Of a stretch of DNA of 64,000 nt, positions 2,460 to 32,836 are shown piece after piece. Below the pieces are notes generated by a model. That model was not told where the DNA came from. It did no database searches and saw only the letters and a list, made by a program, of their open reading frames with translations. How positions within the stretch are numbered: the first letter of the stretch is position 1; every line of letters begins with the position of its first letter. The position numbers and the translations under genes are program-made. Location of the stretch: contig JAJEKV010000054.1 of assembly GCA_021234155.1 (NCBI GenBank), positions 5,503,962 to 5,567,961 of the forward strand, in the 5' to 3' direction. The DNA is from Isoetes taiwanensis. Lineage: Eukaryota; Streptophyta; Lycopodiopsida; Isoetales; Isoetaceae.

Positions 2460-2489
<30 letters not shown>
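2460..2489. repeat. Poly(A) tract at left edge of duplication array
   Basis: About 30 consecutive A, preceded by a short C run, immediately followed by the first base of unit A1. The same A-tract/CC junction style recurs at the other unit boundaries. Confidence 0.9.
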
Positions 2490-2491
<2 letters not shown>

Positions 2492-5238
2492 CTTTGAGCC
2501 TGTTAAGACTATAGGAAATAACAGACTTTAGACCTTATAGTTCCATTTGGAAAAATAAGACCTTCAATTGCAATCCTAGAAATAGACAGGTGCAATCTAA
2601 TTCTAGGCCCTGATAAGGATAAATAAGACAAAAAGAATGATCTGAATCTTTAAGATTATATAACACCAAATTATTTGCAGGCTTAAATTAAGTACATTAT
2701 GCAGGCAAAAACTTAAGACAATAGGATCTTATGACGTATGACAACTCCAAGTTAGAACTGTAAGCCTATAGAGACAACAAACAGAATTCTAAGATATTAC
2801 ATCATATATTTTAGATCTGAAGATTCAAGCCAAATATAACAAATGTTTGATAGAAATAAGTATCTTGATCTCAGCAAATAGAATGTATAACCAAGGAATA
2901 CATACACTAAAAACTTGGTAAAGATAGGCATATTGAATATAGCAAAAGTTGGAAGATACGTGAAGTTATAAGATCCTACAAGAATCGATGAACTAATAGC
3001 CCAGCATAAATGTTGTTGTCATATCCTCTTTTTCACAAATTAAAAACAAGTCATTAGAGTTTTTGGATATCACCATAGACTATAGACTGAAATGTATGCT
3101 TGAGCAATAATCTTGCACAAACTTTTACTTCGAAACATCAAATGGAGGGAAGAGTCCGGTTACCTGCAGTGGAACCAAATGCAAGTTAGCCACGAGAAGG
3201 GTAAATGCATAAGCCACAAAGCAGGGTAAGCAATGAACTCATCCGGCTTAACGCCCCTTCACCATAAAATAAACACATTATAATCATAATAATAAAGCCA
3301 TGTAGTTAAGAAAATGAGTTCTGAAATATATGCAGCAGAAATAGATCCCATAGCACAGAAGCAAATTATGATTATGTTGATGCAGAAACGAAGATCTACA
3401 AGTACAATGTATGGATAATAATGACTAGAAAGAGCATTATTCACAGCACAAAATGACACCTCAATAGAAATGATAATATGGAAAAGAGGGAACAAGCTTA
3501 AGGGCGAAGCAATTTCTTGGACATCATAGAATATAAGGGTTAGTGATGAAGGCACCAAATGCATCAGGAATGAGTGCATGCTGATACAAGATCTTGCAAG
3601 TAGGAAGCCAATGCAATCTAAAAACATGCCAGCTTAGTCAAAGACATGAGAAAACAAACTCGATATATGACAACATAAAATTTAACCAGGGAGGACTATA
3701 AAGTTGCGCATATCAAATAAGGTATCCAACAGATGAGGGAAACACAACAGATTGCTCATGAAACTGAAATAAGGATCGTGAAAATAACTTGGATATAAGC
3801 CGCTAATTTGACATGATGGCAATCCTGCATTAAACTAGAAAGAATAGTTTGAGTTCATAGCCACAACGAAACTAACATGTGGAACAGGGCTCTACATTTG
3901 GTCTGTTAAAAAACTTCAGACAATCTGACAAAGGATATACCATGACTGAGGCCATTACACCAATGGTTTAATGGAAGTGGAAATAAAGCAAATATCTAGT
4001 TAGGAATTGTGTATCTATAGGAAACGGAACTACAAGCACATAAATCAAGACTAGAAATAATGATGATTAAAATATATTGACTAAAAGAACCTGATATGAC
4101 ATGTTGGCCAGATTCCAATCGATTTGATCCTGAAAATCTCTAGTAGTTTGAAGATGCAGTCGGATATGCACTAGGTCACAGAATTGGTATCTCCAATGGT
4201 TGAAGATGCGGTCGAATTCATACTAGGTTGCAGAATTGATATAACACCTCATATGTCTACAAATACAACTGCAGCAGCAGAGCTTGTAATCAAGAGGCAG
4301 AGCCTTGCTAATAGAGAGACTTGTGCAATAACATCCTGCAGATGAGGCAATACTGATACAACTGCAGCTGCAGAGCTGGAAATCATGAGGCGAAGCTTCG
4401 CTAATAGAGAGACGTGTGCAATAACGTCCTGCAGACATCTTGTGTTTATAAAGCAAGTAAAGAAACAAAAGGCAGCCAGAGCTCCATATGCGAGCTATCC
4501 GATGTAGGCCGACTATGTCAGGGAATGGAGTACATCTCCATCTATCATGAACTAGCAGTGAGAATGGTGTCTGTGCAACCCTAAACCTAATCGTAGCTAA
4601 TATCTCACATAAAAAGAAAAATGAGAAAACGTAAGGTAAGCCTTATTATTTACCATAGGAAATAAAAAAGCTTAAAGTTCCACCATTAATAAGTTGGACG
4701 TAACCATATGGTAGGCATAGAATCAACTATTTCTTGACTTTAAGAAAACTGGAATGTGAGAGCTCAACATTAGAGGTTTGTCTTGAAAATATAAAAGGGT
4801 AGACCTGGGAGTATGGACAAACACACATGTAATTTAGGAAACCTATTTTTACAGTGGGATTAACATGGAAATAGTTGTAACTTACACTGGTTAAAATGAA
4901 TTGCTTATCGCAAGACCTTTGGCGAATATTCTGTGGTACCTGGCTAAAACATTAAGCAAAGAATATTTCTGCATATATCAAGGGTCACCACTGGTCTAAA
5001 GTTCTATACAAATAGAGTATAGGATATGTTTCCTATAAAATTAGTTGCTAACAAGGACCATTGGGGGCATGTTTTTATGAAGATTCAGTAGCGCATTACG
5101 CTGGACACCATAAGTAAAATGGCTATGCAATCTATCGAAGAGGACCATTGGGGGGCAAGATATTAGAAGACGTACACAATTCATGGGGATAGAGTAAGAT
5201 GCTTTGTGTAGTCATGCAAACGTTATAATGTAATATAT
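2490..5238. repeat. Duplicated unit A, copy 1 (A1)
   Basis: About 2.75 kb that recurs almost base for base at 7112-9872 in the same orientation. It starts CCCTTTGAGCC right after an A-tract and ends in ATATAT followed by seven A. Both copies carry the same exon-like segment on the minus strand and the same intron-like T-rich minus-strand frame. Most differences between copies sit at CAG/CTG-containing spots. No TG..CA ends, primer-binding site or pol, so it is not an LTR. Confidence 0.9.
3164..3254 (-). pseudogene. Exon-like segment in A1 (unknown protein)
   Basis: Damaged twin of the A2 segment at 7786-7874. It has the same minus-strand donor (CTGCAG|GTAACC), but extra bases near 3193 and 3223 break the frame that is open in A2. 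Those differences lie at sites that read CTG or CAG in A2, so this may be a sequence error rather than real decay. Confidence 0.3.
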
Positions 5239-5410
5239 AAAAAAACCCTTCCTCCTACCACAAGTTAGGAGGCCCCTATGATCTGTCAGAAACATCTGAC
5301 TGTTCTAAAGTTGCAACAGGGAGAGTAGGGCCCTGCTGCAACACAGGGACCCTACCCAACCCATTAAAAAACTACTCAATGCAAATAAAATAGAAAAAGG
5401 TTAAGCTTAC

Positions 5411-5535
5411 ATGATTCCTCTTCAAGACTCTTGTCATGTCCACAATATCAACGGGAAGGCCTTGAACATTTGATAACCTTCAGCGTATGGAGCACAATTC
5501 TGATAGTGTCTCTTTTGAGAAATCCATTGCTGCAA
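5411..5535 (-). pseudogene. Exon-like block in U1 (first half)
   Basis: Read on the minus strand, GTTTTTGCAG acts as acceptor and GGAATCAT|GTAAGCTT as donor. Each frame of the roughly 120 bases contains a stop, but the last part reads VQGLPVDIVDMTRVLKRNH before the donor. The block aligns with the one near 6597-6745, so both descend from one exon. Product unknown. Confidence 0.3.
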
Positions 5536-5984
5536 AAACCTAAGATCAGGGCACACACATTCTCAATGAAAGTTTTTTTGTGAGTCCCGTCCTCAATGTC
5601 ATAAGGTAGCCAAGGGCTTCAACTTCAGAAACATCCTGATGATGTCCGTGTTGAGAGAATGTTGAGAGAATAATAAGATAGTGTAAAAGTTTTTTTATGA
5701 TAACAACCAGCCATGGAACATTTAAATGAACATCCATATAACCACCAATAAGTTATAACGGGAGAGATGTACTGCATCAGGAAATTCAGAATATGCAGAT
5801 CTATGCATAGCCGTATAAACTTGGTCCAGAAACAGGGAATAACTATTGACTGTAGTATGGACATGCATAATAACTATGGTTCAGAAAACATGTAACAGTA
5901 AAGACAAAAATATGGGAAAACATAGCTAGAACACAACAAGAAAAATGATAGTTAGAACACATTGTATAAGAACCTGGTTAGCTA

Positions 5985-6085
5985 TGGCGTCATGTTCGTC
6001 TGGGATCAGCCACAATAGCGTGGCTGGGATTTTCTGGAGCAACAGTATCTGGTGCCAGGATCTGTAGTAGAGTTAAGTTGCTTAG
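5985..6085 (-). pseudogene. Exon-like segment in U1 (middle)
   Basis: On the minus strand, CTACTACAG precedes a frame reading ILAPDTVAPENPSHAIVADP; shifting frame, the sequence continues DEHDAIANQ up to AACCAG|GTTCTT. The two halves look like one exon split by a small indel near a CAG site. Family not recognised. Confidence 0.3.
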
Positions 6086-6596
6086 CTGCCATTTGGTTCG
6101 CAGGTTCCTCTGGATCAAGAGAATAGAATTGATTCTCTTTGAAACTTGATATAGATTCTACATAGAGCTACCTATTCCTTCCGGATCAGCCTCTTTGAAG
6201 TTACTGGCAGAACCCATTACCTTGGCAAGTGAAGCGCGGCTCTAATCGGCAAAGAGATGGAGTTATCAGGTCCGGATTAGGTTTTTTCAAGCCCTAACCG
6301 TCAATAAAATACCCATTAGGTTTACTTATTAATGAAATTGACAGTTTCGATTAGAATAAGGAAATAGTTAAATTATCATGGAAATATTATAGGTAAAATG
6401 GCTAAAAATGGTTCTGCTCTAGCAACTCTGGCTTTTGTTCAATGGTATCTGGTATCGCAGCTTGGGGGCCCCTTAGAATTAGCATGCATCCAAAATGGAA
6501 AGCAAAGTTACAACAGGGAAAGTAGGGCCCTGTTGTAACACAGGGGTCCTACCCAACCGTACATATCTACTCATAAGCAACTAGGAGGTACTTACA

Positions 6597-6745
6597 AGAT
6601 TCCTTTGAGAGAGCGTTTCATGTCTTCAATATAAAAAAGCAGCCCAAGGAAAGTGTCATCAATCGGCGTTTGAGGCACAATCCAAACTTAATAAATTTGT
6701 TGACCCCAAATTTTAACTTCCTTTCTTCATCAAATCTGTAGAACT
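6597..6745 (-). pseudogene. Exon-like block in U1 (second half)
   Basis: Minus-strand acceptor TTCTACAG, then a frame of 38 codons (begins FDEERKLKFGVNKFIKFG, continues LCLKRRLMTLS) ending in a stop close to the donor GGAATCTT|GTAAGTAC. It is a diverged copy of the block at 5411-5535. Lysine-rich; I do not recognise the protein. Confidence 0.35.
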
Positions 6746-7111
6746 GATAGAGGCCAATATTTGTATAAAGCACATGATAATAACATTAAAGACAACATCA
6801 ATTCAAGGTAGTGTGTAATAGTGTAAAAGTTTTTTTGTTATACACAACCAACTATGGAAAAACTCTTTCCATAAAAATCCATAGCTGGTGGGACTTACAA
6901 CAGCCTTAAGATGTGATTTTTGCCTTTGTTGTGGCGTATGAGAGTCAGCTCTTTGCTCCATAAATTGTTAAAAACCGTATCTTCAATAACAGGCATAGAA
7001 TCAGGTCCAATTTTCTGTAATAGGAATCAAGTGTGAGTAGAAACAATAAAGCACCTTTTCTCCAAATCAGGGTCCCAAGTTAAACCTAGGAATTGGAGTA
7101 ACATTAAAAAA

Positions 7112-9872
7112 CCCTTTGAGCCTGTTAAGACTATAGGAAATAACAGACTTTAGACCTTATAGTTCCATTTGGAAAAATAAGACCTTCAATTGCAATCCTA
7201 GAAATAGACAGGTGCAATCTAATTCTAGGCCCTGATAAGGATAAATAAGACAAAAAGAATGATCTGAATCTTTAAGATTATATAACACCAAATTATTTGC
7301 AGGCTTAAATTAAGTACACTATGCAGGCAAAAACTTAAGACAATAGGATCTTATGACGTATGACAACTCCAAGTTAGAACTGTAAGCCTATAGAGACAAC
7401 AAACAGAATTCTAAGATATTACATCATATATTTTAGATCTGAAGATTCAAGCCAAATATAACAAATGTTTGATAGAAATAAGTATCTTGATCTCAGCAAA
7501 TAGAATGTATAACCAAGGAATACATACACTAAAAACTTGGTAAAGATAGGCATATTGAATATAGCAAAAGTTGGAAGATACGTGAAGTTATAAGATCCTA
7601 CAAGAATCGATGAACTAATAGCCCAGCATAAATGTTGTTGTCATATCCTCTTTTTCACAAATTAAAAACAAGTCATTAGAGTTTTTGGATATCACCATAG
7701 ACTATAGACTGAAATGTATGCTTGAGCAATAATCTTGCACAAACTTTTACTTCGAAACATCAAATGGAGGGAAGAGTCCGGTTACCTGCAGTGGAACCAA
7801 ATGCAAGTTAGCCTGAGAAGGGTAAATGCATAAGCCACAAACAGGTAAGCAATGAACTCATCCGGCTTAACGCCCTTCACCATAAAATAAACACGTATAA
7901 TCATAATAATAAAGCCATGTAGTTAAGAAAATGAGTTCTGAAATATATGCAGCAGAAATAGATCCCATAGCACAGAAGCAAATTATGATTATGTTGATGC
8001 AGAAACGAAGATCTACAAGTACAATGTATGGATAATAATGACTAGAAAGAGCATTATTCACAGCACAAAATGACACCTCAATAGAAATGATAATATGGAA
8101 AAGAGGGAACAAGCTTAAGGGCGAAGCAATTTCTTGGACATCATAGAATATAAGGGTTAGTGATGAAGGCACCAAATGCATCAGGAATGAGTGCATGCTG
8201 ATACAAGATCTTGCAAGTAGGAAGCCAATGCAATCTAAAAACATGCCAGCTTAGTCAAAGACATGAGAAAACAAACTCGATATATGACAACATAAAATTT
8301 AACCAGGGAGGACTATAAAGTTGCGCATATCAAATAAGGTATCCAACAGATGAGGGAAACACAACAGATTGCTCATGAAACTGAAATAAGGATCGTGAAA
8401 ATAACTTGGATATAAGCCGCTAATTTGACATGATGGCAATCCTGCATTAAACTAGAAAGAATAGTTTGAGTTCATAGCCACAACGAAACTAACATGTGGA
8501 ACAGGGCTCTACATTTGGTCTGTTAAAAAACTTCAGACAATCTGACAAAGGATATACCATGACTGAGGCCATTACACCAATGGTTTAATGGAAGTGGAAA
8601 TAAAGCAAATATCTAGTTAGGAATTGTGTATCTATAGGAAACGGAACTACAAGCACATAAATCAAGACTAGAAATAATGATGATTAAAATATATTGACTA
8701 AAAGAACCTGATATGACATGTTGGCCAGATTCCAATCGATTTGATCCTGAAAATCTCTAGTAGTTTGAAGATGCAGTCGGATATGCACTAGGTCACAGAA
8801 TTGGTATCTCCAATGGTTGAAGATGCGGTCGAATTCATACTAGGTTGCAGAATTGATATAACACCTCATATGTCTACAAATACAACTGCAGCAGCAGAGC
8901 TTGTAATCAAGAGGCAGAGCCTTGCTAATAGAGAGACTTGTGCAATAACATCCTGCAGATGAGGCAATATCGATACAAGCTGCAAAATTGCGCAGAGCTG
9001 GAAATCATGAGGCTTCGCTAATAGAGAGGCGTGTGCAATAACGTCCTGCAGACATCTTGTGTTTATAAAGCAAGTAAAGAAACAAAAGGCAGCCAGAGCT
9101 CCATATGCGAGCTATCCGATGTAGGCCGACTATGTCAGGGAATGGAGTACATCTCCATCTATCATGAACTAGCAGTGAGAATGGTGTCTGTGCAACCCTA
9201 AACCTAATCGTAGCTAATATCTCACATAAAAAGAAAAATGAGAAAACGTAAGGTAAGCCTTATTATTTACCATAGGAAATAAAAAAGCTTAAAGTTCCAC
9301 CATTAATAAGTTGGACGTAACCATATGGTAGGCATAGAATCAACTATTTCTTGACTTTAAGAAAACTGGAATGTGAGAGCTCAACATTAGAGGTTTATCT
9401 TGAAAATATAAAAGGGTAGACCTGGGAGTATGGACAAACACACATGTAATTTAGGAAACCTATTTTCTGATTGGGATTAACATGGAAATAGTTGTAACTT
9501 ACTGCTTGGTTAAAATGAATTGCTTATCGCAAGACCTTTGGCGAATATTACGTGGTACTGGCTAAAACATTAAGCAAAGAATATTTCTGCATATATCAAG
9601 GGTCACCACTGGTCTAAAGTTCTATACAAATAGAGTATAGGATATGTTTCCTATAAAATTAGTTGCTAACAAGGACCATTGGGGGCATGTTTTTATGAAG
9701 ATTCAGTAGCGCATTACGCTGGACACCATAAGTAAAATGGCTATGCAATCTATCGAAGAGGACCATTGGGGGGCAAGATATTAGAAGATTCAACAGCCAG
9801 TAACGTACACAATTCATGGGGATAGAGTAAGATGCTTTGTGTAGTCATGCAAACGTTATAATGTACTATATT
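7112..9872. repeat. Duplicated unit A, copy 2 (A2)
   Basis: Second copy of the 2490-5238 unit, direct orientation, starting after AAAAAA and ending at a 14-base A-tract. Differences from A1 cluster: for example TTTACAGTGGG (A1, near 4850) versus TTTCTGATTGGG here (near 9463), and ACACTGG versus ACTGCTTGG shortly after. Confidence 0.9.
7786..7874 (-). CDS. Exon-like segment in A2 (unknown hydrophobic peptide)
   Basis: On the minus strand, bases after GTGAAG form an open frame of about 30 codons reading GVKPDEFIAYLFVAYAF then TLLRLTCIWFHC, ending at a consensus donor CTGCAG|GTAACC. The central part is hydrophobic enough for a membrane helix. A diverged relative at 10297-10386 has the same boundaries but an in-frame TAG. 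An alternative plus-strand reading (acceptor CCTGCAG, donor CAG|GTAAGC) gives stops, so the minus strand is preferred. The gene is unidentified and a coding role is only inferred. Confidence 0.35.
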
Positions 9873-9886
9873 AAAAAAAAAAAAAA
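9873..9886. repeat. A-tract at A2/B1 junction
   Basis: Fourteen A directly joining unit A2 to unit B1. Confidence 0.85.
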
Positions 9887-10296
9887 ACCTTTTAAAATCT
9901 GTTCAAACAGACTTTTTCCATCCATGGACTTTTGCAAAGACCACTTCAGTACAATATGCAGCCTTAAGCCAAAACAGGTGTAAATTTGACTTAAGCCTTA
10001 AAAATGGTTAACATTTACTAAAGCAGATGATATTACCAGATTCTATTAACAAATAAGAATTTCCTTTCGTCAATCTCATTAATGTTTTTGTTCAATACAT
10101 TATTTTTACCTTTAAAAGAGTTCATCATTGACTCTAGAACAGTATAAGATCAAAATTAAAGTTTAGAGTTTCCCTTGTCTTTCAACACCATAGAGCTCAA
10201 TAGACTTGTCAAAACTATATCTGCAATGCCACCATGTCTTGTAGCTTTTCCAACATGAATACATGGGAAAACACACATAGGAGCAAGAAATCCCGT

Positions 10297-10386
10297 TACC
10301 TGCAGTGAAACCAGAGGACAGTTAGCCTAAGAAGGGTAAGAGCCTAAGTCACTAACAGGTAAGCTACGGATTCCTTGGGCTTATCG
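10297..10386 (-). pseudogene. B1 relative of the A-unit exon-like segment
   Basis: Same layout as 7786-7874: GTGAAG, then KPKESVAYLLVT, an in-frame TAG, then ALTLLRLTVLWFHC and the donor CTGCAG|GTAACG. B2 (about 14199-14288) has the same stop, so the stop predates the B duplication or is common to the reads. Confidence 0.35.
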
Positions 10387-10741
10387 CCCTTCACCTTGCA
10401 TGTTAACACAAACACAATAGACAGTCAATTTATCAGGCAAAGAGTGTGTAAATTACTCTGCCCTAAAAGATTAGCCTACATGCAACTTTTATCAGTATGC
10501 AAGCTTAGAAATTATTATTATTAAATGCTTCTCCACCAGCTTATGACAAGGTCTAGAAGCTTCATTCTTCCTACCCGCAATTGTCACGAGGTCTCCTCTA
10601 TTATAAGCATGCATGCAATAAAGGGATCATTTTCACATATATGAGAAGGTCTGGAAGTCCATTTTTGATGCTGCTCTCAGATACAAAATTATTATCGGCA
10701 ATATCATACCCAAAAGAATTCCAAATTGTAACCGCCCCAAA

Positions 10742-11095
10742 CTAAAGTGGCCACAAAGCGTGTGTTTCTGTTAAGAGCCCTTTAGCATTAAAAAGAGCAT
10801 CAACCCGGTGAGCATATTCTGTAAAACATCCTAGGCGGGCTTTGCACGCTTTGGATATGCAAAATGTCAAATAGAGCAAGAACCCAATCACGGATCTAGA
10901 ATTTTCGTGCAAAAATATTGAAGAGTTCAGCTTATTTTCTTCCAACCTCAGTAAATTTTTGCGAATGGCATCGAACCGCTCAGGCTGTGCTCACCATGCC
11001 ACAATTCAAGTGCCCAACTTGAAAGCCTTTGGATGAGCGAGAAAAATCTGGCATGTAGAACTCTTTTATTCGGGTTTAGGGTCCATTTTACAACT
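10742..11095 (-). pseudogene. Exon-like coding remnant in B1
   Basis: Read on the minus strand, one frame gives HARFFSLIQRLSSWALELW then HGEHSLSG; a shift leads to RFDAIRKNLLRLEENKLN then SSIFLHENSRSVIGF and on to 10742. In B2 the matching region has different local errors (GEHVNRFDAIRKNL in one frame). Taken together the copies suggest one exon damaged differently in each. Family not recognised. Confidence 0.3.
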
Positions 11096-11992
11096 CGAAA
11101 CCCACCTCAAGATTTTCGTACACTATTCCCTATTGAATCTGTAGCACTCGTTTGCCTGCATGGCTATTAAGCTATCTATATCTAGAATCCATAAAATATT
11201 AATTCGTTTACTCTGTAGCAGTGCGTAAACAATGTAACTATTGAATTTTAAACTATATAATGCATAGATCGTGTTTAATTAAGCATCAACACTCTGTCCT
11301 TTAAGCTATACCACCTGCACAATAGTCCACACTGCATAGTTCAAGACTCACAGCAGTTCTCTTAATAAGTTTTAACCAAATTTTAGATCTAATAGGAACA
11401 TGGCCACAACTCGTGTATGCTGCTCTGTCTCACGCTTAAATATCATGCATTAGTTGGCAGACTTAGAAATTAAGCTTTCTACCATCTGGAGAATGTGAAC
11501 ATAACTGTTAAAACTCATATATGTCTACTCAAATCTGCACATTATATACAACCTAGGTGTATGGACAAGTGCATGCTAGTCCCATTAACATCAGTCCTAA
11601 GTTCAATCCATCTTTTTAGTTTTTCATATCTCCATTGCTTTACAGTAGCCTTGTATCCCTGCTGGGGTGCTTAAAAGGATACCATTTCTAAACCAGAATT
11701 CTTATGCTATAATTATCCCGATTATCTTTTAAGACCTCAGGCTTTTCTGTGCTCATTCAGTGCAATCATGAAATGAAGGCATGCTGGAAGAAGGAGCAAA
11801 TACATGTTCTTTGCGGCAAACACATAGGCCACAAATGCACAACCCATGGCTCATTATAGTAGCATTAGACTAATGTAAACATCCAGTTGAAAAGAGAATA
11901 GCTCCATACGAATAGTGTCATGCCTTATTATCATATAAAGAAAAATATCCACACAAAGTATTCAGCAAATAGGGTGATTCAATTATTCAAAC

Positions 11993-12112
11993 CTGGGAGT
12001 AGACCTTTGTTCTAGCATAATTGCCTTTGGTCATGTTGATCGCAAATTGCGAAAGCTCTCCAATGCCTTGTTTACTCAAAGAAATAGTGGATGGCATCTC
12101 TATATTATTCTC
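11993..12112 (-). CDS. Probable internal exon, unknown protein (B1 copy)
   Basis: On the minus strand AATCCAG precedes exactly 120 bases, 40 codons with no stop, ending TACTCCCAG|GTTTGA. The peptide begins ENNIEMPSTISLSKQGI and ends KGNYARTKVYSQ. The B2 copy is also open but differs by compensating indels (GIGELSQF here, GIESFRQF there), which preserve the frame. Phase 0 at both ends. This is the best exon candidate in the left 20 kb. I do not recognise the family. Confidence 0.45.
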
Positions 12113-12252
12113 CTGGATTATCACATGCAAAAGAGAGTAGATTCAGTTAATGTCACCAGCATCTTTCCCTTTATTCAAATTATCATAGCTCTTCAGTCCT
12201 GTTGCTACGATAGCCTTATGGAATTGGCATATCTTTTCCATGAAGTATTTAC

Positions 12253-12437
12253 CTTCTTCTCCCAAGAAGCAGGCATCAAATCCATCTTATTTACATCTAT
12301 TTTCACAGCCTTTATGCACCGTTGCAGCCACAGTTCTATAGAAGGTCACCCATCTTGCTATGCATTTGCGGCTCCGCCATCCAAGACATGCCATAATATT
12401 CCAGCATTCTATGCCGCAAGGGCAAGTTCGGAATACC
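12253..12437 (-). CDS. Probable exon upstream of the 11993-12112 exon (one-base frame break)
   Basis: Minus strand: acceptor-like AATTAG, then NLPLRHRMLEYYGMSW, MAEPQMHSKMGD, a one-base frame break, then PSIELWLQRCIKAVKIDVNK, MDLMPASWEKK and donor AAG|GTAAAT. A second overlapping frame (FLGEEGKYFMEKICQFHKAI) runs through the donor side, so the true exon end is uncertain. A missing C in a C-run at the break would restore one frame. Same gene as the 120-base exon by order and strand. Product unknown. Confidence 0.4.
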
Positions 12438-13039
12438 CTAATTAGGGTTCAAGAAATGCATTATATTAGGCCAGGATCATAATTTACCTTTTATTTTTCT
12501 AAACCCTGGTTCTTGCATAATCGAAATCTCACCATCCATCAATGGCTAAGAGTTGCCCAATCTGTTGCAGGCCAACTGTATGGTGGCCGCTGAGCTGCCT
12601 AATAAAACTCTGTTACAGTCAAGTAGAGAGTAGAGGTTCAGGGATACAAAAAGCGTGACCATCACGTTTTTCTATTTTCCACTGTATTTTTCTTTTCCAC
12701 GAGTTTTCTTTGTGTACATATGTGGACATTTTCGATCAACACCACCATTATGCAACCATGGGTTTTCACCCCATACTCCATTTCTGTAAACAATGTCAAA
12801 CCATTGTTACATGCCCATGATAGTGCAATAATGTCTTAGATTCCTAAAGCTTATGATAGAGCACCTAGCAGTGTATCAATGTGCATCCATAAAGCCCTCG
12901 TGTCATATATATGCCATAGAACCATTGGTCTTTACCCTTGTTCAAGCAACCTGCCGTAAATAACTACATAGCTACAGACAGAGCAATAATTCCTTAGAGT
13001 CATGATGCATTAGAGCCATCATTACTTATAATAAAAAAA

Positions 13040-13789
13040 GCCTGCCTCCTACCGTAGGTCAGGGTGGGCCAAAATTCATAAATAGAGTTAGCAACAAGGA
13101 GAGTAGGACCTTGTTGCCAAAGCCCTACCCTACCTATATTGCCTAATTGTACAAGTAATTATTATTCTTTAACGAGCCAACTGGCAAGCAAGTTCACCAA
13201 TAAAATGAGTAAGAAATACCGCTTGGTAAGAGTACTAATCTGTGCCAATGCCTGCGTACCCCATATAAGTTCCAGCAATATAATCTACGCACATTACATT
13301 TTGAAAACTTGATCATAATCTTCTTTATTGTATACAATAACAGGAAGCATTTGAGTGAGAATAGATATAAGGCAAAATCTAGGAGAGGATTACCTCCAAA
13401 GCTCGCTAGTATGGTCTGCAATAGCCCAATGGCAATTCATAAAATTCATAAGCCCAATGGCAGTTTATTTCATATGACATTCTTCTTGACAAAACATGTC
13501 CAATCTCACCATGTATAAACGTTACAAAAAGGCCTTGGTGCGGTTGCATTGAATAACACTATTCAAATACAATATGCTTCACAATAAGTCATTGATAATC
13601 CAGCATTGATTATTCGTCCACATTGGCAGTCTTAGTGCGTAATTGTCCAGATTGATCGAAAATATAGAATCGTCATTTCCAGCCTATGCCAGTTCCTATA
13701 AAGATCCAAAATGTATTAGTAAGAAATTGTATACACCTGAATTTTAACCATTTTAAGGCCCCTAGTATAACTAGGGAACTGAGTTAATG
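13040..13789. other. Spacer U2 between B1 and B2
   Basis: Begins like U1 (CCTCCTACC, then a CAACAAGG hairpin at 13088-13120). The rest is AT-rich with no supported gene. Confidence 0.5.
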
Positions 13790-15896
13790 AAAAAAAAACC
13801 TTTTAAAATCTGTTCAAACAGACTTTTTCCATCCATGGACTTTTGCAAAGACCACTTCAGTACAATATGCAGCCTTAAGCCAAAACAGGTGTAAATTTGA
13901 CTTAAGCCTTAAAAATGGTTAACATTTACTAAAGCAGATGATATTACCAGATTCTATTAACAAATAAGAATTTCCTTTCGTCAATCTCATTAATGATTTT
14001 TACCTTTAAAAGAGTTCATCATTGACTCTAGAACAGTATAAGATCAAAATTAAAGTTTAGAGTTTCCCTTGTCTTTCAACACCATAGAGCTCAATAGACT
14101 TGTCAAAACTATATCTGCAATGCCACCATGTCTTGTAGCTTTTCCAACATGAATACATGGGAAAACACACATAGGAGCAAGAAATCCCGTTACCTGCAGT
14201 GAAACCAGAGGACAGTTAGCCTAAGAAGGGTAAGAGCCTAAGTCACTAACAGGTAAGCTACGGATTCCTTGGGCTTATCGCCCTTCACCTTGCATGTTAA
14301 CACAAACACAATAGACAGTCAATTTATCAGGCAAAGAGTGTGTAAATTACTCTGCCCTAAAAGATTAGCCTACATGCAACTTTTATCAGTATGCAAGCTT
14401 AGAAATTATTATTATTAAATGCTTCTCCACCAGCTTATGACAAGGTCTAGAAGCTTCATTCTTCCTACCCGCAATTGTCACGAGGTCTCCTCTATTATAA
14501 GCATGCATGCAATAAAGGGATCATTTTCACATATATGAGAAGGTCTGGAAGTCCATTTTTTGATGCTGCTCTCAGATACAAAATTATTATCAGCAATATC
14601 ATACCCAAAAGAATTCCAAATTGTAAAGCCCCAAACTAAAGTGGCCACAAACCGTGTGTTTCTGTTAAGAGCCCTTTAGCATTAAAAGAGCATCGGCCCG
14701 GTGAGCATATTCTGTCAAAAACATCCTAGGCGGGCTTTGCACGCTTTGGATATGCAAAATGTCAAATAGAGCAAGAACCCAAACGGATCTAGAATTTTCG
14801 TGCAAAAATATTGAAGAGTTCAGCTTATTTTCTTCCAACCTGTAAATTTTTGCGAATGGCATCGAATCGATTTACGTGCTCACCATGCCCCAATTCAAGT
14901 GCCCAACTTGAAAGCCCTCTTTGGATGAACGAGAAAAATCTCTTTGTGTAGAACTCTTTTATTGGGTTTGGGTCCATTTTACAACTGGAAACCCACCTTA
15001 AGATTTTCGTACACTATTCCCTATTGAATCTGTAGCACTTTCGCTTTTTGCATGGCTATTAAGCTATCTATATCTAGAATCCATAAAATATTAATTCGTT
15101 TACTCAGAAAGCGGTCGTAAAACAATGTAACTATTGAATTTTAAACTATATAATGCATAGATCGTGTTTAATTAAGCATCAACACTCTGTCCTTTAAGCT
15201 ATACCACCTGCACAATAGTCCACACTGCATAGTTCAAGACTCACAGCAGTTCTCTTAATAAGTTTTAACCAAATTTTAGATCTAATAGGAACATGGCCAC
15301 AACTCGTGTATCTTTTGCCTCGTCTCACGCTTTTTAAATATCATGCATTAGTTGGCGGACTTAGAAATTAAGCTTTCTACCATCGGAGAATGTGAACATA
15401 AGCTGTTAAAACTCATATATGTCTACTCAAATCGCACATTATATACAACCTAGGTGTATGGACAAGTGCATGCTAGTCCCATTAACATCAGTCCTAAGTT
15501 CAATCCATCTTTTTAGTTTTTCATATCTCCATTGCTTTACAGTAGCCTTGTATCCCTGTGTACAGGGTGCTTAAAAGGATACCATTTCTAAACCAGAATT
15601 CTTATGCTATAATTATCCCGATTATCTTTTAAGACCTCGGGTTTTTTTACGTTGCTCATTCGATTGCAATCATGAAATGAAGGCATCTTTGGAAGAAGGA
15701 GCAAATACATGTATTCTTGCAGCAAACACATAGGCCACAAATGCACAACCCATGGCTCATTATAGTAGCATTAGACTAATGTAAACATCCAGTTGAAAAG
15801 AGAATAGCTCCATACGAATAGTGTCATGCCTTATTATCATATAAAGAAAAATATCCACACAAAGTATTCAGCAAATAGGGTGATTCAATTATTCAA

Positions 15897-16020
15897 ACCT
15901 GGGAGTAGACCTTTGTTCTAGCATAATTGCCTTTGGTCATGTTGATCGCAAATTGCCGAAAGCTCTCAATGCCTTGTTTACTCAAAGAAATAGTGGATGG
16001 CATCTCTATATTATTCTCTG
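15897..16020 (-). CDS. Probable internal exon, unknown protein (B2 copy)
   Basis: B2 counterpart of the 11993-12112 exon. Minus-strand frame reads NNIEMPSTISLSKQGIESF then RQFAINMTKGNYARTKVYSQ before CAG|GTTTGA. Open throughout. See the B1 entry for boundaries. Confidence 0.4.
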
Positions 16021-16159
16021 GATTATCACATGCAAAAGAGAGTAGATTCAGTTAATGTCACCAGCATCTTTCCCTTTATTCAAATTATCATAGCTCTCGA
16101 TCCTCCTGTTCTACGATAGCCTTATGGAATTGGCATATCTTTTCCATGAAGTATTTACC

Positions 16160-16341
16160 TTCTTCTCCCAAGAAGCGGGCATCAAATCCATCTTATTTAC
16201 ATCTATTTTCACAGCCTTTATATGCCGTTGCGTACAGTTCTATAGAAGGTCACCCATCTTGCTATGCATTTGCGGCTCCGCCATCCAAGACATGCCATAA
16301 TATTCCAGCATTCTATGCCGCAAGGGCAAGTTCGGAATACC
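16160..16341 (-). pseudogene. B2 copy of the exon-like segment with further frame damage
   Basis: Matches 12253-12437 but three bases shorter. It keeps the MLEYYGMSWMAEPQMHSK and AVKIDVNKMDLMPASWEKK blocks in different frames. The shortened stretch lies where B1 reads GCAGCCACAG. Confidence 0.35.
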
Positions 16342-16926
16342 CTAATTAGGGTTCAAGAAATGCATTATATTAGGCGGGATCATAATTTACCTTTTATTTT
16401 TCTAAACCACGGTTCTTGCATAATCGAAATCTCACCATCCATCAATGGCTAAGAGTTGCCCAATCATTCTGGGAGCCAAGCTGTATGGTGGCGGTGCCTA
16501 ATAAAACTACATTACAGTCAAGTAGAGAGTAGAGGTTCGGGGATACAAAAAAAAGCGTGACCATCCGTTTTTCTATTTTCCACTGTATTTTTCTTTTCCA
16601 CGAGTTTTCTTTGTGTACATATGTGGACATTTTCGATCAACACCACCATTATGCAACCATGGGTTTTCACCCCATACTCCATTTCTGTAAACAATGTCAA
16701 ACCATTGTTACATGCCCATGATAGTGCAATAATGTCTTAGATTCCTAAAGCTTATGATAGAGCACCTAGCAGTGTATCAATGTGCATCCATAAAGCCCTC
16801 GTGTCATATATATGCCATAGAACCATTGGTCTTTACCCTTGTTCAAGCAACCTGCCGTAAATAACTACATAGCTACAGACAGAGCAATAATTCCTTAGAG
16901 TCATGATGCATTAGAGCCATCATTAC

Positions 16927-16930
<4 letters not shown>

Positions 16931-16959
<29 letters not shown>
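16931..16959. repeat. Poly(A) tract at right edge of duplication array
   Basis: Twenty-nine A closing unit B2. Confidence 0.9.
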
Positions 16960-21407: not shown

Positions 21408-23211
21408 TCAGTCATCCATAACTCCATCCAGAGTTATAATCGCATAGGCTTGATCCGTATACTTATTGAGCAGGTAATCCAGCTCCACAGCCCCATATGC
21501 AGACGCATCCAAAATATGAAGAATCCAGGACTCCCGCGCTCCCTCACAAATACCAAGCTTATCTTGGAAATAAGGCTTGAGTTCTTGTTTGAATTGCCAT
21601 ATATCCTCATCCGCCAGAATACGCTTTAGAGCTCGGATCATAATAGTTTCTGTTTTGACCCAAAGTAGGGCTTCCAGTACCTCTTGATGTGACATTGGGT
21701 TGGTGTTATCCGGAACTATTCTGGCATGTCCTCCCTCGTGATGTTTCTTAACCAGATAATCTGTTATCAACATCAGATAAACTGTTAAAGTAAGAAGTGA
21801 AAAACGAGTAAAATCCCTGAAAGGAACCCAGCTTATCCCAATTTTTATCATAATTGGATCCCTTAGGCAATCTATGCGCCATAGCTGCATCAGCCAGTTC
21901 AAGTTGAAGGATTGTTTTAAGAGCATTTATATCAGGTGGAGAGTGGTTTATGGCCACATTGTTTCTATGCTTCCATATCGACCACATGCAGATAGTTCTG
22001 ACTGTATCCAGAAATGGGGAACTATTTGCTAAGAAGACAAAAAGATCGACCTCGTACTTTCGGGGTGACACCAATATAGGCCCCAATCCAATTCCAGAAA
22101 GGAGTGAGCCATGGGCAAATAAAAATATGGCTTGAGGATTCAACTTGGCCACAGCCTAAAGGGCAGCTATCTATTGCCTGATCATTGTATTTGGAACGGT
22201 AGGCATTGGACTTTAGGCTTTTATTCAGTACTAACCATCTGAAAAAGGTAATCTTTCTGGCACATTGTAATTTCCAGCCTTTCGATACTTGACTATAGCT
22301 TCCGAAGTCCGAAAGCAGCCCCATTGGTGGGCAACTTTCGTTCCATTAGAATTCAAGAGCATTAAGTAGATCTTAGAAACTATGTAGCCTTTACCATCCA
22401 TAGTCCAATTGAGCTCTTTTTTCTCCCCACTCCTTGGATGCCGAGTTAACACATTGTATATATTTCTATTGCATACTGTGTCTTGCACAAGGCCAGAGAT
22501 TTCTTGCCATGATCTTCAATCATCCCCTCTGACCATATTGCCCACAGTACAGAGATCTTTGAGTTTCCACTCTTTGTATTTTCTGGGATGTTTGAGGGCC
22601 AAACACCCATCATCCTCATCTGTAAGTCCCTGGTGCCAAAAGAAACTAAAGTCATCTGAAACATTTTCAACTGGGCAGGCTTTGAAGCATACAGACACTT
22701 TGTTCCAAGCTTGGATAACTCTCCTCATTATAGCAGATGTGCCCATTGCTGGATTTAGTTGATAGAAAGCAGAATCAGGCAGATGATGTGGAGTAGATGG
22801 GCTTCCCACTAAAGACGTCCTCCCAATCCAATATTTCATTAAGTAAAGAGCAGGGGACTTTGAGGAGGAAGTCAGAGATCTCCACACTAGTTTAGCTGCT
22901 AAGACTTGTGCCTGCAAGAACAAATCCTTACACCCCAAACCTCCCCTTTTTCTGGGAAGAGCTAGGTACTGCCACCCCACCATGTGAGCACCTTGCCAAA
23001 TAAATTCTTTCATAATGGCCTCTATTTCCTGATAGGACTTTTTGTCTGCTATTATTGCTGATGAGAAAAAAACATGAGAACTGGCAATAACACTGTTAAC
23101 TATCCCCACTCTACCAGCCAAAGAAAGAGTCTTAGGGTACATCTTTAGCTTCTTTTTAATTTTGGTGACTATTGGCTCCCATAAGCCATGTAGACTCATG
23201 TTGAGGGCCAA
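21408..23211 (-). pseudogene. LINE ORF2 C-terminal part: RT thumb/connection and zf-RVT domain
   Basis: From 23211 downward: SLHGLWEPIVTKIKKKLKM, LSLAGRVGIVNSVIASSHVF, IKEFIWQG-like MKEFIWQGAH, and RKRGGLGCKDLFLQ, the typical region after plant L1 RT. Next comes the zf-RVT zinc finger (FFRWLVLNKSL, then CPLGCGQVESSSHIFICPW with Cys, Cys, His, Cys spacing) near 22100-22250. The tail reads ICMWSIWKHRNNVAINH. Several frameshifts split it over four frames. Confidence 0.85.
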
Positions 23212-23383
23212 AGGTAAAACCTAATAGTTTGGTGGGTGATTGGTAACCACAAACTTTGATCCCTTCAATATAATCCTTTGGGCTAGAGGATATAATTGCA
23301 CATTTATCCTTGTTTAGAACAACTCCGAGGCTTTTCCAAACTGTTCATAGCAGCAAGAAAGTTTTGAATCTTGGCCCCCGATT

Positions 23384-24934
23384 TTAGAAAACACGAACGT
23401 ATCGCCGTGCGATCTTGCATAAATGCATGGTATCATTTGTTTCAGGAAGCTTTAAGCAATTAATCTTGTTGTTCTGCTGCAGTTTCAGAATAACCCTGGT
23501 TACCATTTCTGCAACTATCAAGAAAAGATAGGGGGCCGGAGGACAGCCCCCATCTCCTCCTCTTTTGCATTCAAAAAAGGGGGAGGGGGAGCCATTAACC
23601 AAAACTGCAGAGCAGCCTGCCACATTAAACCCAGCTATCTTCTTTATAACTGCCTCTGAAAAGCCCATTTGAGACATGGCTTTGTACAGGAAGCCCCAGT
23701 CTATTGTGTCATAAGCCCTTTTAAAGTCTAGCTTTAGTAACACACATTCTTGGCTAGAAATTCTGTTCCAATGCAGTCCTTCATATGCACCAACAAAATT
23801 ATCAAGGATGCTTCTCCCTGGTAGAAAGCCTGATTGGACTTGATTGATCTTTGACATTAAAATTTTCTTCAATCTGTTGGCAAAAATCTTGGCTATGATT
23901 TTGTATGTGACATTGGTCAGAGATATCGGCCTCCAGTCAGAAAATGTAGTAGGCTTATCTACCTTAGGGACTAAGGCAATGAGTCCAGCATTAATAGCAG
24001 GATGCAATCTCTCAGCTTGCCAAGCTCCCTGTACAAAGGTTGTAAGATCTTTGGACATTAGTCCCCAGAAATGCTCATAGAATTCTGGAGGTAGGCCATC
24101 CGGCCCTGGGCTTTTCCCATGGGCCATACTCCTTATGACTCCCAGAATTTCTGCTTCAAGAGGAACTGCCAGGAGCTGGTTATCTTCAATCATCACATCT
24201 TTAGGTCCAAGTGAACTAAAGAACTCATCCATGCAACAATTATCAATGTTTACTGCTGCAAACAACTCCTTGTACTTGTTGTGAAATAAGTTTTGGATAT
24301 CCTCCTGCTTGGACATCTCAAGCTGACTGTCATCTATTACTGAGACTATCCCATTGTTCATCAACCTGCTCTTGGCAGCCCTAAAGAAAAATTTGGAGCT
24401 GCAATCATCCATCAAATTGACATACAGGCCCCTATTTTTGATTGCCAAGCTCTTTGCCTCATGTTCCTCAATTAATTTGACTTTCCTTTCTAGGATTTCC
24501 TCTCTCTGTTGAAGAGCCAGATTGGATTTATCCATAAAAAGGTTTTGTCTAACCTCTTTCATTTCCAGATAAACTTCTCTTTTCTCCTGTTTCTTTTTCC
24601 TGCTCCATACCTTGCCCCACTGTTTAATCCAATTTTTTATCTGCTTGACCCTATTGGTGAATTCCTTCATAGAACCACTTATGTTTATGGCCTTGAGGGA
24701 GCTGTAGAACCGAGTGTAGTCATCACAGAAAACTTTATTGCTCAGCAGGCTGGTATTAAACTTAAATGGGATATCAGTGGGTTTATTTTGGGGCATATAA
24801 CCTGTGTCCAAGATCTGGGGGTAGTGATCAGAAATAGAATTGCTACAATCATTAGATATGGTCAGGTTATCCCATCCTGTCAAGGTTGATGTATTGGTAT
24901 AGTACCTGTCAAGTAAGCAGTACACCCTATCCAC
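23384..24934 (-). pseudogene. LINE ORF2: endonuclease C-terminus plus reverse transcriptase
   Basis: A 516-codon frame that starts in the endonuclease C-terminal part (SDHYP, the conserved SDH box, about residue 37). RT blocks follow: GKSPGPDGLPPEFYEHFW, RPISLTNVTYKIIAKIFANR, QSGFLPGRSILDN, LKLDFKRAYDTIDWGFLYKA (motif A, catalytic Asp) and a RQGCPLSPYLF equivalent reading GGCPPAPYLF. The frame ends near 23384 just where the YADD box should be. The ATG at its start is internal to ORF2, not a real start. Confidence 0.9.
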
Positions 24935-25492: not shown

Positions 25493-27540
25493 TGTACTTT
25501 GGTGCTTCTTGTAACAGGCCCATCTGCTCTAGGAGTATAGACCTTTTTCTTCCTTTTGGTGCTTTGGGGAAGTGGGAGTGGAGTAGCAAAGGATAAATCA
25601 TTTTCTTCACCTTCACTACCATCTTCATCATCCCAAAACCTACCCGACAATTTAGATGATGGATCTTTCAATTCTCTAATCTGTGCAACTGGAGTCTTGA
25701 ATAATTCTCTTTCCACTGACTCCCCAGCTCTTTCCTTAACCAATTCTTGGCCAGAAGGGCTTAAAGTTCTCCTTATGCTCACAACAAGTTCCCGGCCCGG
25801 TGGCGACCCCTCTTGGCCGGTGGGCTTAGAGGTCTCTTGGTGTGAACATAACCCATTCGGCCTTACGGAGTTACAAGCCTTTGGGTAAGTTCAATATTTT
25901 GGTCAACAAATTCAGTTTGGGACTCCACCGATACAAGTCTTTTCTTTGGAGCATCTACCCGCCGATTCGGGTTCCATATTAGGAGGAGTGATATGTATTG
26001 ACACACACACATCAGACCTACCTACCTTTGGGTCCTTAGGGAAAAGTTCTATAACCGGGAGTGGTGAGTCAATGGCACCTTTATCTGGGACACCAACGGG
26101 GATCTTGGGTGAACTAGGTTCTCCTTTTTCTTTGTACCCAAAGGACTCCTCGGAAGAGGAGTACTCTACCTCGAGGTATCCCATTATCCTTTATCTTGAT
26201 AGATAAAGATCTAGTCACTTCTGGCGATTTATCCCTCATTATTTCTTTTCCTTTAGAGCCCTGGGATTATTTAAGACTTTGACCTTGGCGAGTCCTCTTG
26301 AAATTGCACCTTTTTTTTTCCATTCACTTCTCATTTTCCTCTCCATTTGTCTACGGATTCCACCCTTGCCTTCTCCTTCTCCATGTCTTCTTTAATTTTA
26401 CGTCTCCTTCTTTTTTTTTTTTCTCACTTCCATTCACGCTTACGTCTATCATTTTTCTTCCTCTGTTAGGAGTGATCCAAACACCCTCTTTACGCCTTTC
26501 TCTGATCTGTCCCTTTGGAGGTTCTCGTTCCCCTCGACAAACTTTCCCCGCCATGCAATCTAATTCCCACAGGCAGAGAACGGTGAGGAAGACCTTGCCA
26601 TGCCAATTTCAATTGACTTGGGCTTACCAAAGTAGTCCACGAAGTCAATGGCTTAGGGATTGGCTTAAGAATATCTATTTGGGCCCAAACTCTCGGAGCT
26701 TTGTCCTGAGAAATTTCCCAACTGATAACGTTACCAGTTTGTTGGAAAAGTGTTTGAAGAGATTGTTCATTCCAATACATGGGGTTTAGCCCTTGTAAGC
26801 CGGATGGAATAGTTCTGAAAAGCCTTGAGGATCGAATGTCGGGTACCATTTCTGGAAGAAGAATTGAGTATTGGCCTTCGAAATGGTGCCCTGTTTTAGA
26901 AGAAAGGAAGCTGTTTGACTATTCCCGCATTCCACCATAAAAAAAGGGAAATCTATCCAATAGACACTGTTGATAGTGACCCCACAATCCATTTTTTCTA
27001 TTTCCCCTTTAATATACTGCAATCTTACTCCCTCATGACGAATACAGCCTATCAGACCTCTGGACTTTAAAAACTTGAGCTTACTTTCTACTGCAGCATT
27101 CCTAAGAGGCTTACCCACAAATACCGGCTCTTTAACTGTCAGCAGCTCCTTTCGCACGTCTTCCTGAACCTGATTTGCATACTCCAAAATTTGGCTGACT
27201 GCTTCCTTTTGCCTCTGCAGCGTACCAACTCCGGAAGAACGTCTTGTATTCACCATATCTGAGATCGACGTGAGAAAATCCCCGAACACAATGAATCCTT
27301 CACCTTCTCACCCTTCTCTATTGCTGCCAAATGGTTCGTAATTTCTCTAATTTGATCGTACCCTTTTTTACTAAGGGTACGGATCAAATCTATCAATTCC
27401 TCTGCCTTGGCTTCAATTTTTTCATTATTCCCCTCTGTCCCTGTCTTTCCCTTTTCCATATGGTCTGCCATCATTTGCATATTTCCCAAGAACTGACCCT
27501 CCTGCCCTTTCTGCTACATATCACCCGACATACTAACCCC
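25489..27540 (-). pseudogene. LINE ORF1 (gag-like, DUF4283 type), frame-broken
   Basis: Assembled from several minus-strand frames. The N-terminal coiled-coil part (27489-27250) reads KIEAKAEELIDLIRTLSKKG. The DUF4283-like core (27289-26786) has LKFLKSRGLIGCIRHEGVRL, FFMVECGNSQTASFLL and WYPTFDPQGF; it continues in another frame (26849-26490) with NPMYWNEQSLQTLF and APRVWAQIDILKPIPK, the usual lead-in to the zinc knuckle, whose Cys residues are split between frames. The C-terminal part (26184-25489) is Ser/Pro/Glu-rich and looks disordered. The family binds element RNA. Confidence 0.8.
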
Positions 27541-28698
27541 TGTCCCAGACAACTGATTTTTTATTATTTTTTCTGATCTTACTATCCCACTTTCCAAACT
27601 ACCACCTAAACCCACTGAAAACCAAAGACCTAACTGTAAACCTTCACCACAATTTTACTATCAGTCCAAGAACAATGTGTGTGGAAGATACCCGCTGCAC
27701 TGGCATTTCTATCACCTATAAATTCACCTAGCCACGATTCAAGAAGCAACACCTCAGATTGAGGCACTAAAGAAAAGATTGGAGAAAATAGCTCTTCAGG
27801 GAAGAATCTATTATACACCAGACTCTCCCATAGTCGTGCTCCTTCTCATCCACAAGAGAATCGCTCTCCCTGGATCAGAACCGTGAAGAACTTCATGGCT
27901 TAGGGTATGGTAGGCGTTGTTCTTCCCGCCCAGGCGCCATCTCTCGATAATACCAAATTCAGTTATGACAGATCGAAATAATATCATCCACAACAAAGTC
28001 GAAGTTACAAATGCAACAATATGACACTACGACATAGCCCTGGGCTCTTTGGATTAAAGGCACTGATACGACTTAATGTCGGCTGGGGGGAGCAGCTCAG
28101 GCTCAACACATTTAGACCTAATTTATTTTGGGAACTTAGAAATCAACTTAAATGTATTCCATGGGGTAAATAAATTAAAGTAAACCTATGAAACATTAAG
28201 CCTTTAAAATGTCTAAATGGTTGATAACGGGTCATCGACCTTTTTAGCAAAAATTGTATCAAGCCCAACAGCTTCACCGAATCTTCATGTACCACAATTG
28301 CCCCTCGTTCTTCCAGTGTCTTATTATTTTGATCAGGCCAAGGGTCGAATCAATTTATTCTTAGCCGATTCTATCCTAGCCATTCCTATTTTACCTTTTC
28401 CTAAACTATTTCGCAGTAAAAGGGATTTTCCATAAAAAGAGGGGTGTCTCATTCCATTATAAACTTCAGTTGCTTTCTACGTTAGATACAAGCTCATCCA
28501 TCTCAACCTTTGAATTCCAGCGTCCATATTTATTGCGGCTGCGTCACAGTTCAAGCCATAGACAGTTGATCCTGTGTTAGAGTTGAAATAGAAAGATAAC
28601 AATTTCTTGCTTGGATCTGAGCCCGGTTGGGAGGCAAAACATCTTTTAAGGATTGGAGTATTGTTTATGGTTCATATTATTTGTCATTGTATCAATTT

Positions 28699-28710
28699 TG
28701 GTATCAGAGC
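28699..28710 (+). promoter_or_regulatory. Primer-binding site, tRNA-iMet type
   Basis: TGGTATCAGAGC is the usual plant LTR-retrotransposon PBS complementary to the 3' end of initiator methionine tRNA. Confidence 0.9.
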
Positions 28711-28735
28711 CAAGCCCTTCCTAGAATCTGTGCTA

Positions 28736-29720
28736 ATGGCTCATCGTTTCAATATCCCTGAAAGCCAGTACCAGCAGGCATTAGGAACTGCTGATTTTAT
28801 ATTAAAAGAAATTGCTAACCAGATAACACTGCCACCGCCTACATCTCAGAGGATTATCAGCATAAATTAGAGCAGATAGCTCTACTTTATTGGTTTCTAC
28901 CCAGTGTTGCTCAACAGCCTCCGTTATCAAGTGATCCTCCACCTTCTAATCCGCCTCCACCTGAAAGTTTACCACCCATCAATCCACTACCAGCTAATTC
29001 CAACCCAGATCCTATGAATACTGCAGAAATTGACTCTCAAAACAAGAAGGGCAAGGCTCCTAAATGATTACAAAAATTGGATCTGCCATAGTTTAGTGGC
29101 GGAATAGCTGTTAAACCGATGAAGGTGATAAGTTTCCTTGGAATCTGGAAGAAGTTCTTTGAGAGAGTTACGACGACTGAACAAGAGAAACTGCAAGCCA
29201 TGGATACTTATCTAGATGAACAAGCACAAGTTTGGTGACAAGGCCGCAGATTGATGCAGCCTGAGGTTAACTCATGGAACATATTACGTAGTGCGTTTGA
29301 AGCCCATTATTTGCCTGCAAATTATCACATGATATTGCAAAGAGAGTGGGATCTTATTAAACAGGATGAGGAGAAACTATATCTGATTATTATATGAAGT
29401 TCAGTCATTTGCGCTCACAAGTTATAAACTTGGATGAAAATGAGCTTTTAAGAAAGTGTGAATGGTTTAAAGGAAGACATATTTGCAGAAATGGATCTTA
29501 TTGAACCAATAAATATGGAAGGTGCAATAAAAAAAGCAGGAGCTGCAGAACGGAAATTAAATCCCAAGACCCGCAAACTAGTTATTTGGGAAGGAGCGCC
29601 TTCTTGGGAACATAAAATATCTAGAATTAAACTATGGTGTTGGAGTGAAAATGATATGAGAGTACAATTATCTATGAAAGGCGCATGCTTCAATGAAAAA
29701 ATTATGAAGGCGAAGGCGTC
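28736..29720 (+). pseudogene. gag: Gypsy gag polyprotein remnant
   Basis: ATG at 28736 opens MAHRFNIPESQYQQAL. A Pro-rich linker follows after a frameshift (PPLSSDPPPSNPPPP), then the retrotransposon gag domain: LQAMDTYLDEQAQVW, a TGA where Trp is expected, QGRRLMQPEVNSW, FEAHYLPANYHMILQREW and, in a later frame, NGLKEDIFAEMDLIEPINM. At least one stop and two to three frameshifts. No zinc knuckle or pol follows. Capsid function in life; clearly dead here. Confidence 0.8.
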
Positions 29721-29766
29721 CAAAACAAAAACCTTATGAGCTCAACTCTAAAAACAAACGTTTAGA

Positions 29767-30015
29767 AATATGAAATACGATTTTGGATAAGTTCAAACTT
29801 TGGTCAATTAGAACAACAATATGATATATGGTCTTGGGCAAGTTCCAACTTGGGTCAATGAGATAACAACCTAAGGTCCAACCATATACCAAGAAGAAAT
29901 ATATGAAATATGGAATCAAAACAAAAGCCAATTAGAACAAAAATATGCATATGATCTTGAGCCAGTTCGAATTGAGCTAATGAGACAACAATCTAAGGTC
30001 CAACAATATAATCTA
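29767..30015 (+). repeat. Diverged two-unit tandem duplication after gag
   Basis: Two units share GAAATATG, CAATTAGAACAA, ATATG, GGTCTTG/GATCTTG, a GAG(A)T(A)ACAA block and CTAAGGTCCAAC. The second unit has an open frame (IYEIWNQNKSQLEQKYAYD). It may be a spacer region of the same LTR element. Confidence 0.6.
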
Positions 30016-30055
30016 GGAGACAATTGTTTTGGTACACCAAAAGCAAAATAAAGAA

Positions 30056-32634: not shown

Positions 32635-32763
32635 TTAAACACAAAATATGAAATATGTCTGCCATAAATGCCGTAATATTTGCATGGGTGTCACCAAATT
32701 TTGCCCTTCAGATATCCACAAAATCATGTTTCTCTGTAAAACAATTTTTGCAATTCCATGGAT
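32635..32763 (-). CDS. Probable terminal exon of an unknown gene
   Basis: On the minus strand GTATTGCAG is a good acceptor; 42 codons follow (IHGIAKIVLQRNMILWISEG, ending WQTYFIFCV) to a TAA at 32637-32635. It joins in phase 0 to the exon at 32837-32902. A GT inside (after AATTTG) might be a donor, so the C-terminus is not certain. Protein family not recognised. Confidence 0.5.
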   Translation of the reverse strand: MHGIAKIVLQRNMILWISEGQNLVTPMQILRHLWQTYFIFCV

Positions 32764-32836
32764 CTGCAATACATTCAACATTGTTAGCAAACCAGTGCTA
32801 AGTATCATGTAGAAGCTTAAAATAGATTTACCTCAC

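Follow-up and report, generated by a model that had tools for sequence, protein, structure and literature searches.

A stretch of 64,000 nucleotides from Isoetes taiwanensis (GenBank assembly GCA_021234155.1, contig JAJEKV010000054.1, positions 5,503,962 to 5,567,961 of the forward strand; hereafter the window) carries two pairs of direct repeats, named A and B, in the range 2490-16930. Judged from the letters of the assembly, many, and probably most, of the differences between the copies of each pair are very likely consensus errors driven by base modification, probably in nanopore data, and not mutations. The differences gather at CAG and CTG (together CWG, a CHG context), and the copy poorer in CWG tends to be the richer in CG.

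All four repeat copies were located with blastn and are read on the forward strand. Copies A1 (2484-5245) and A2 (7106-9879) are 98.2% identical; copies B1 (9879-13039) and B2 (13790-16940) are 95.7% identical. Global alignment of the A copies gave 21 mismatch and 34 gap columns, and that of the B copies gave 92 mismatch and 70 gap columns. Differences lying within 6 columns of one another were merged, which gave 16 clusters in A and 46 in B, 62 in all, where the preliminary description had estimated about 45 by eye. Forty of the 62 clusters span several columns, and the stretches between them are identical in both alignments, as had been described. Pair B is affected far more than A, mostly within B2, and B1 is mostly clean.

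A cluster was assigned to CWG when at least one copy had CAG or CTG within 2 bases, and chance expectations were derived from circular shifts of the difference positions (1000 for clusters, 2000 for trimers). CAG or CTG occurs in 33 of the 62 clusters (53%), with about 10 expected. The permutation check on the full alignments found CWG sites enriched in both pairs: 25 of 46 clusters in B against 7.6 ± 2.3 expected, with none of 1000 shifts as high, and 8 of 16 in A against 2.5 ± 1.3 expected, with 1 of 1000 shifts as high. The enrichment held for each of four aligner settings and three ways of defining a cluster (always 0/1000 in B, 0 to 4/1000 in A). The enrichment announced in the preliminary description is thus confirmed, at a lower fraction than the two thirds given there. 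The four pairs of spellings quoted as its examples were all recovered, at 11050/14942, 11487/15385, 11459/15357 and 12271/16177. One of the 33 clusters, a 15-base insertion or deletion (indel) at 5170, looks real, yet it touches a CWG site and is included in the count.

In a ranking of strand-merged trimers represented by 8 sites or more, CAG/CTG headed the list in B1 (hits at 30 of 82 sites, 7.2 expected, 0/2000 shifts) and in A1 (8 of 71 sites, 1.9 expected, 2/2000 shifts). In B1, the trimers CAA, CAC and ACT stayed near their expected levels, and CAT was changed at 7 of 171 sites; CAG/CTG was changed at 29 of 82 sites versus 24 of 379 for CAA, CAC and CAT combined (Fisher p = 5e-11, with sites of the same cluster being non-independent). 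The differences are therefore concentrated on one modifiable motif, which leads the trimers of A1 and B1 and marks 33 of the 62 clusters. By location, CAG/CTG stands in B1 only in 17 of the B clusters, in B2 only in 3, in both copies in 5 and in neither in 21. These figures bear on a consensus error in which methylation plays no part, that is, a poorly covered or polished patch with long-read noise, or a basecaller's context weakness at CWG. The patchiness of the damage, its position in repeats, to which short reads would not map uniquely, and the homopolymer length changes among the differences all fit such an error. General noise, however, would neither favour CAG/CTG among trimers nor spare CAA, CAC and ACT, and a pure sequence weakness should make both copies suffer alike, against the 17 to 3 division in B. 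We consider this explanation highly improbable.

Within the B1 core (10660-12670), differences hit 30 of 56 CWG sites, with at least one hit in 14 of the 16 NCAGN contexts, so that a general CHG mark fits better than a longer motif. A biological process of clustered mutation at CWG, through error-prone repair of modified cytosine or through hairpin instability of CAG/CTG, would also produce clustered changes enriched at one symmetric motif. The flanks are varied, however, as the 14 contexts show, and identical wrong spellings recur at separate sites. Hairpin instability was rejected because tandem tracts are almost absent from 2484-16940, where tracts of at least 3 units are represented only by one GCAGCAGCA per A copy. 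We know of no biological process that mutates CWG in clusters, and the chance of such an origin appears close to nil.

The change at CWG sites has a direction. The CWG count is unequal between the copies in 28 clusters, and the CWG-poorer copy has more CG in 21 of them, an equal number in 7 and fewer in none; the excess was found in 4 of 5 such clusters in A and 17 of 23 in B. Counted by eye, five separate clusters, of which two lie in A and three in B, pair CTG with ACG; several pair CAG with CGG or CGA, and four pair CTG with (C)TTTG. The CG split and the repeated spellings mark the error as recurrent and directional rather than random. A guessed recurrent spelling of 10 bases occurs once, as by chance, and was dropped after a search that also allowed one mismatch. 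In B the deviation can be assigned to a copy. The B2 core (14555-16570, forward strand) is the main deviating patch, with observed/expected ratios of 0.69 for CWG and 0.65 for CpG, versus 0.93 and 0.48 in the B1 core; the CpG ratio of the neighbouring A copies is 0.42-0.44, which makes B2 the outlier. Differences in B2 are marked by CpG trimers, namely CCG (13 of 27 sites) and CGA (15 of 38).

If the duplicated, methylated plant DNA had diverged in the ordinary way, the differences would consist of deamination at CpG and CHG together with random indels. Among the 33 CWG clusters, 23 contain indels, 5 several substitutions and 5 a single substitution. Single CHG deaminations are absent from these clusters, and 4 of them are a single transition of the CpG type (CAG/CGG), which deamination of CGG at its CpG would also give. 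The earlier statement that this is not a deamination pattern therefore stands overall and fails for these four pairs. Among mismatched columns, transitions are more numerous than transversions, at 57:35 in B and 13:8 in A, as deamination would have it, but the pattern is not one of isolated C to T or G to A changes in CpG or CHG context, and the multi-column form of most clusters is foreign to it. In a study of a natural nuclear insertion in Arabidopsis, 270 of 425 single-nucleotide variants are transitions, 235 of these run from GC to AT, 175 of the 235 lie at CpG or CHG, and only 44 indels accompany them (PMC9071559). That natural plant case is dominated by transitions, unlike the indel-bearing clusters described here. 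Finally, the CpG-rich and CWG-poor copy is B2, and a similar relation was found in the pair of repeats considered below. Ordinary divergence as the main source of the differences is, in our estimate, quite improbable.

Pair B can serve as an outgroup for A in a single place, A1 3150-3300, which holds four differences between A1 and A2. In the four-way alignment A1 is the odd sequence at three of the four, all within the patch 3192-3254 (forward strand), where A1 alone deviates and the differing columns of A2 match both B copies. The first involves a CTG in A2 and a CTA in the B copies, the second a CAG in A2, B1 and B2, the sole CAG kept by all three other sequences, and the third a C-run of unequal length. 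From this small outgroup basis of one alignable stretch, damage does not appear to be confined to the second copies.

A second test was made on two copies of a long interspersed nuclear element (LINE), a repeat unrelated to A and B. The reference copy (58285-59960, forward strand) has an open frame of 428 amino acids (58472-59758), and the divergent copy (36740-38533, reverse strand) is 73.3% identical to it outside gaps; long gaps were masked, as was one poorly aligned stretch. The divergent copy has 37 CWG versus 74 in the open copy, and 110 CpG versus 55. Of 68 CWG sites of the open copy, 56 are not conserved, with 40.3 expected and 0 of 1502 shifts as high, and CG stands opposite 30 of the 68, compared with 30 of 190 CAA, CAC and CAT sites. 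In the reverse direction, change at the divergent copy's own CWG sites was not unusual (21 changed, 19.6 expected, 543/1505 shifts), while 9 of them were touched by indels (3.7 expected, 12 shifts). The LINE pair thus shows the same loss of CAG/CTG and gain of CG as A and B. Since the pair is divergent, natural change is mixed into its signal, and 13 of the 68 sites do resemble ordinary CHG deamination. Against deamination, the CpG-rich copy is the one that lacks the long open frame, whereas decay of the older copy would have had the opposite effect. The divergent copy makes up part of a GC-rich region, 36000-42000, with 81-130 CpG and 35-38 CWG per 2 kb and the lowest CWG/CpG ratios of the window.

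Several observations weigh against modification-driven consensus error. In 29 of the 62 clusters neither copy has a CWG within 2 bases; 11 of the 29 hold a CpG, and some of the others amount to shifts in homopolymer length or could well be real, such as a 17-base indel at 10085 and isolated T/C and G/A differences. In B1 the trimers CGC (9 of 19 sites), GCC, AGC and CCG are enriched as well, less strongly than CAG/CTG. CAG/CTG is weakly enriched in B2 (9 of 61 sites, 165/2000 shifts as high) and ranks third in A2 (7 of 70 sites, 12/2000 shifts), after two CpG trimers. A weak CWG signal is expected in whichever copy is misread, and this makes the enrichment test one-sided. The fourth outgroup difference (3277) has one column, the rest being gapped, in which A2 departs from B and A1 does not. 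In the LINE pair, the deamination-like sites belong here too; CGA is conserved even less than CAG (0.14 vs 0.18), being the only trimer below it, and indels at the open copy's CWG sites (11, with 7.5 expected) were not significantly enriched (161/1502 shifts). A literature search in a limited collection found no description of this error at plant CHG.

CHG methylation is well established in plants. Under the explanation preferred here, modification-driven consensus error, the cytosines of CAG and CTG in native plant DNA would be methylated on both strands, and a basecaller trained on 5-methylcytosine in CpG only, or never trained on it, would misread the signals of methylated CHG. The same misreading in nearly every read would let the error be retained in a majority consensus. 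A misread CWG would often be written as CG, with CAG becoming CGG or CGA and CTG becoming ACG or CG, and bases would sometimes be gained or lost; CG may be the output because the model had met 5-methylcytosine in CpG context. Patchiness could result from uneven polishing with accurate reads, or from methylation that differs between patches and copies. That the sites are methylated, that nanopore reads were used and what made the damage patchy are inferences. The proposal of the preliminary description that base-calling error on methylated DNA is at work draws support from the CWG enrichment, from the 23 of 33 clusters with indels and from the one-way passage of CWG to CG. The sign of the LINE pair, the oddness of A1 at three of four outgroup differences and the bacterial nanopore precedents discussed below point the same way. 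A further proposition, that the deviating spellings are themselves a trace of methylation, B2 being CHG-methylated and B1 not or less so, seems unlikely. Should it hold, the signature of CWG deficit with CpG excess would allow copy-specific CHG methylation of recent duplicates to be mapped from a FASTA file alone.

The preliminary description had also supposed that frameshifts in an OTU gene, in cyclin T and at the YADD motif of a LINE may be artefacts. Pfam was run on 1-21002, 27001-36702 and 60001-63992 in all six frames and on some strands of the other parts, except 39703-41000, 48003-49000 and 53003-54000. The LINE in question lies on the reverse strand and gave matches to Exo_endo_phos and RVT_1, with zf-RVT below threshold (24.3 bits, cut-off 27.5), a combination consistent with a plant. 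In the part encoding its plant-type reverse transcriptase (23150-23560), the RVT_1 match ends at about 23465, where the alignment with human LINE-1 sets TGTRQGCPLSPLLF against RGGDGGCPPAPYLF. The frame reads GGDGGCPPAP versus TRQGCPLSP in human LINE-1, and is lost at the YADD motif, at about 23400. Because Q may be encoded by CAG and L by CTG, a frame break in this region fits an artefact, as the preliminary description had supposed, but a relative close enough for proof did not turn up, and viral contigs contained no close relatives of two LINE proteins. A third LINE (49957-50450, reverse strand) has its RVT_1 match split over two frames near 50205-50241, just after a VKQG motif, with the first piece below the cut-off.

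An OTU domain was not found by Pfam in the scanned parts of the window. A sub-threshold Cyclin_N match at about 45905-46021 on the reverse strand (16.8 bits, cut-off 23) is possibly the cyclin T of the preliminary description; a candidate cyclin-like frame at 42193-42741 on the same strand had no match in PDB up to an E-value of 1. In the A/B region no Pfam family exceeded its cut-off in six frames, and a match to viral NS1 there (16.7 bits, cut-off 25) was taken as noise, as was a PspC match elsewhere (16.2 bits, cut-off 27). A microvirus lysis match at about 43.4 kb (19.9 bits, cut-off 25) was likewise rejected, and 43100-43700 had no DNA match in a phage collection. Rfam and tRNA searches yielded no Rfam family and no tRNA.

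The repeats follow one another in the order A-x-A-B-y-B (2460-16959). Poly-A tracts mark the unit junctions, the outer ends being A30 and A29, and the ends of x (5246-7105) resemble those of y (13040-13789). A module of about 105 bases is common to A (3155-3263) and B (10291-10395) at 77-81% identity and is the sole similarity between A and B listed by blastn. Two more repeated modules lie within x, at 5307-5387/6504-6583 and 5678-5738/6818-6883. A long terminal repeat structure for A-x-A and B-y-B was dropped, as the boundaries, inspected by eye, have no TG...CA ends. The arrangement could have arisen by recombination at poly-A, as a chain of poly-A-ended units, or by the serial assembly of two haplotypes.

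If modification-driven error is the correct reading, the raw 95.7% identity exaggerates the divergence of B1 and B2, because the approximately 1150 bases of B outside the core are nearly identical, with a 17-base indel and a single base change as their only differences. Dates of insertion or duplication, pseudogene calls and CpG statistics would then be biased wherever such patches persist in the assembly, and the copy ages and broken genes of this region are unsafe to take at face value. The test for CWG deficit with CpG excess needs a FASTA file only and might be extended to other plant assemblies.

Related errors have been reported in three systems. In plants, species-specific basecallers improve the lower nanopore accuracy on native DNA, of which methylation was named a likely cause (PMC9749173). 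That study resembles the present case in its plant DNA and in methylation as a likely source of error; it differs in giving no such motif, with CHG, CAG and CTG absent from its main text. Polishing left nanopore errors at GCAGC and GCTGG in Listeria genomes (PMC10687267). These five-base motifs are bacterial and the authors call the mechanisms unclear, but the errors are likewise centred on motifs with a CAG/CTG core and survive ordinary polishing. In a Dcm-methylated bacterium, about 70% of the consensus errors of then-current Oxford Nanopore Technologies basecallers with default models lay in CCAGG/CCTGG and were ascribed to training data without that modification (PMC6591954). There the motif is bacterial and five bases long, the modification was known and a reference was at hand, whereas here CWG in general is affected, in a eukaryote represented by its assembly only; in both, the errors are systematic, persist in a majority consensus and fall on a symmetric, CWG-containing motif, in the bacterium one that carries 5-methylcytosine.

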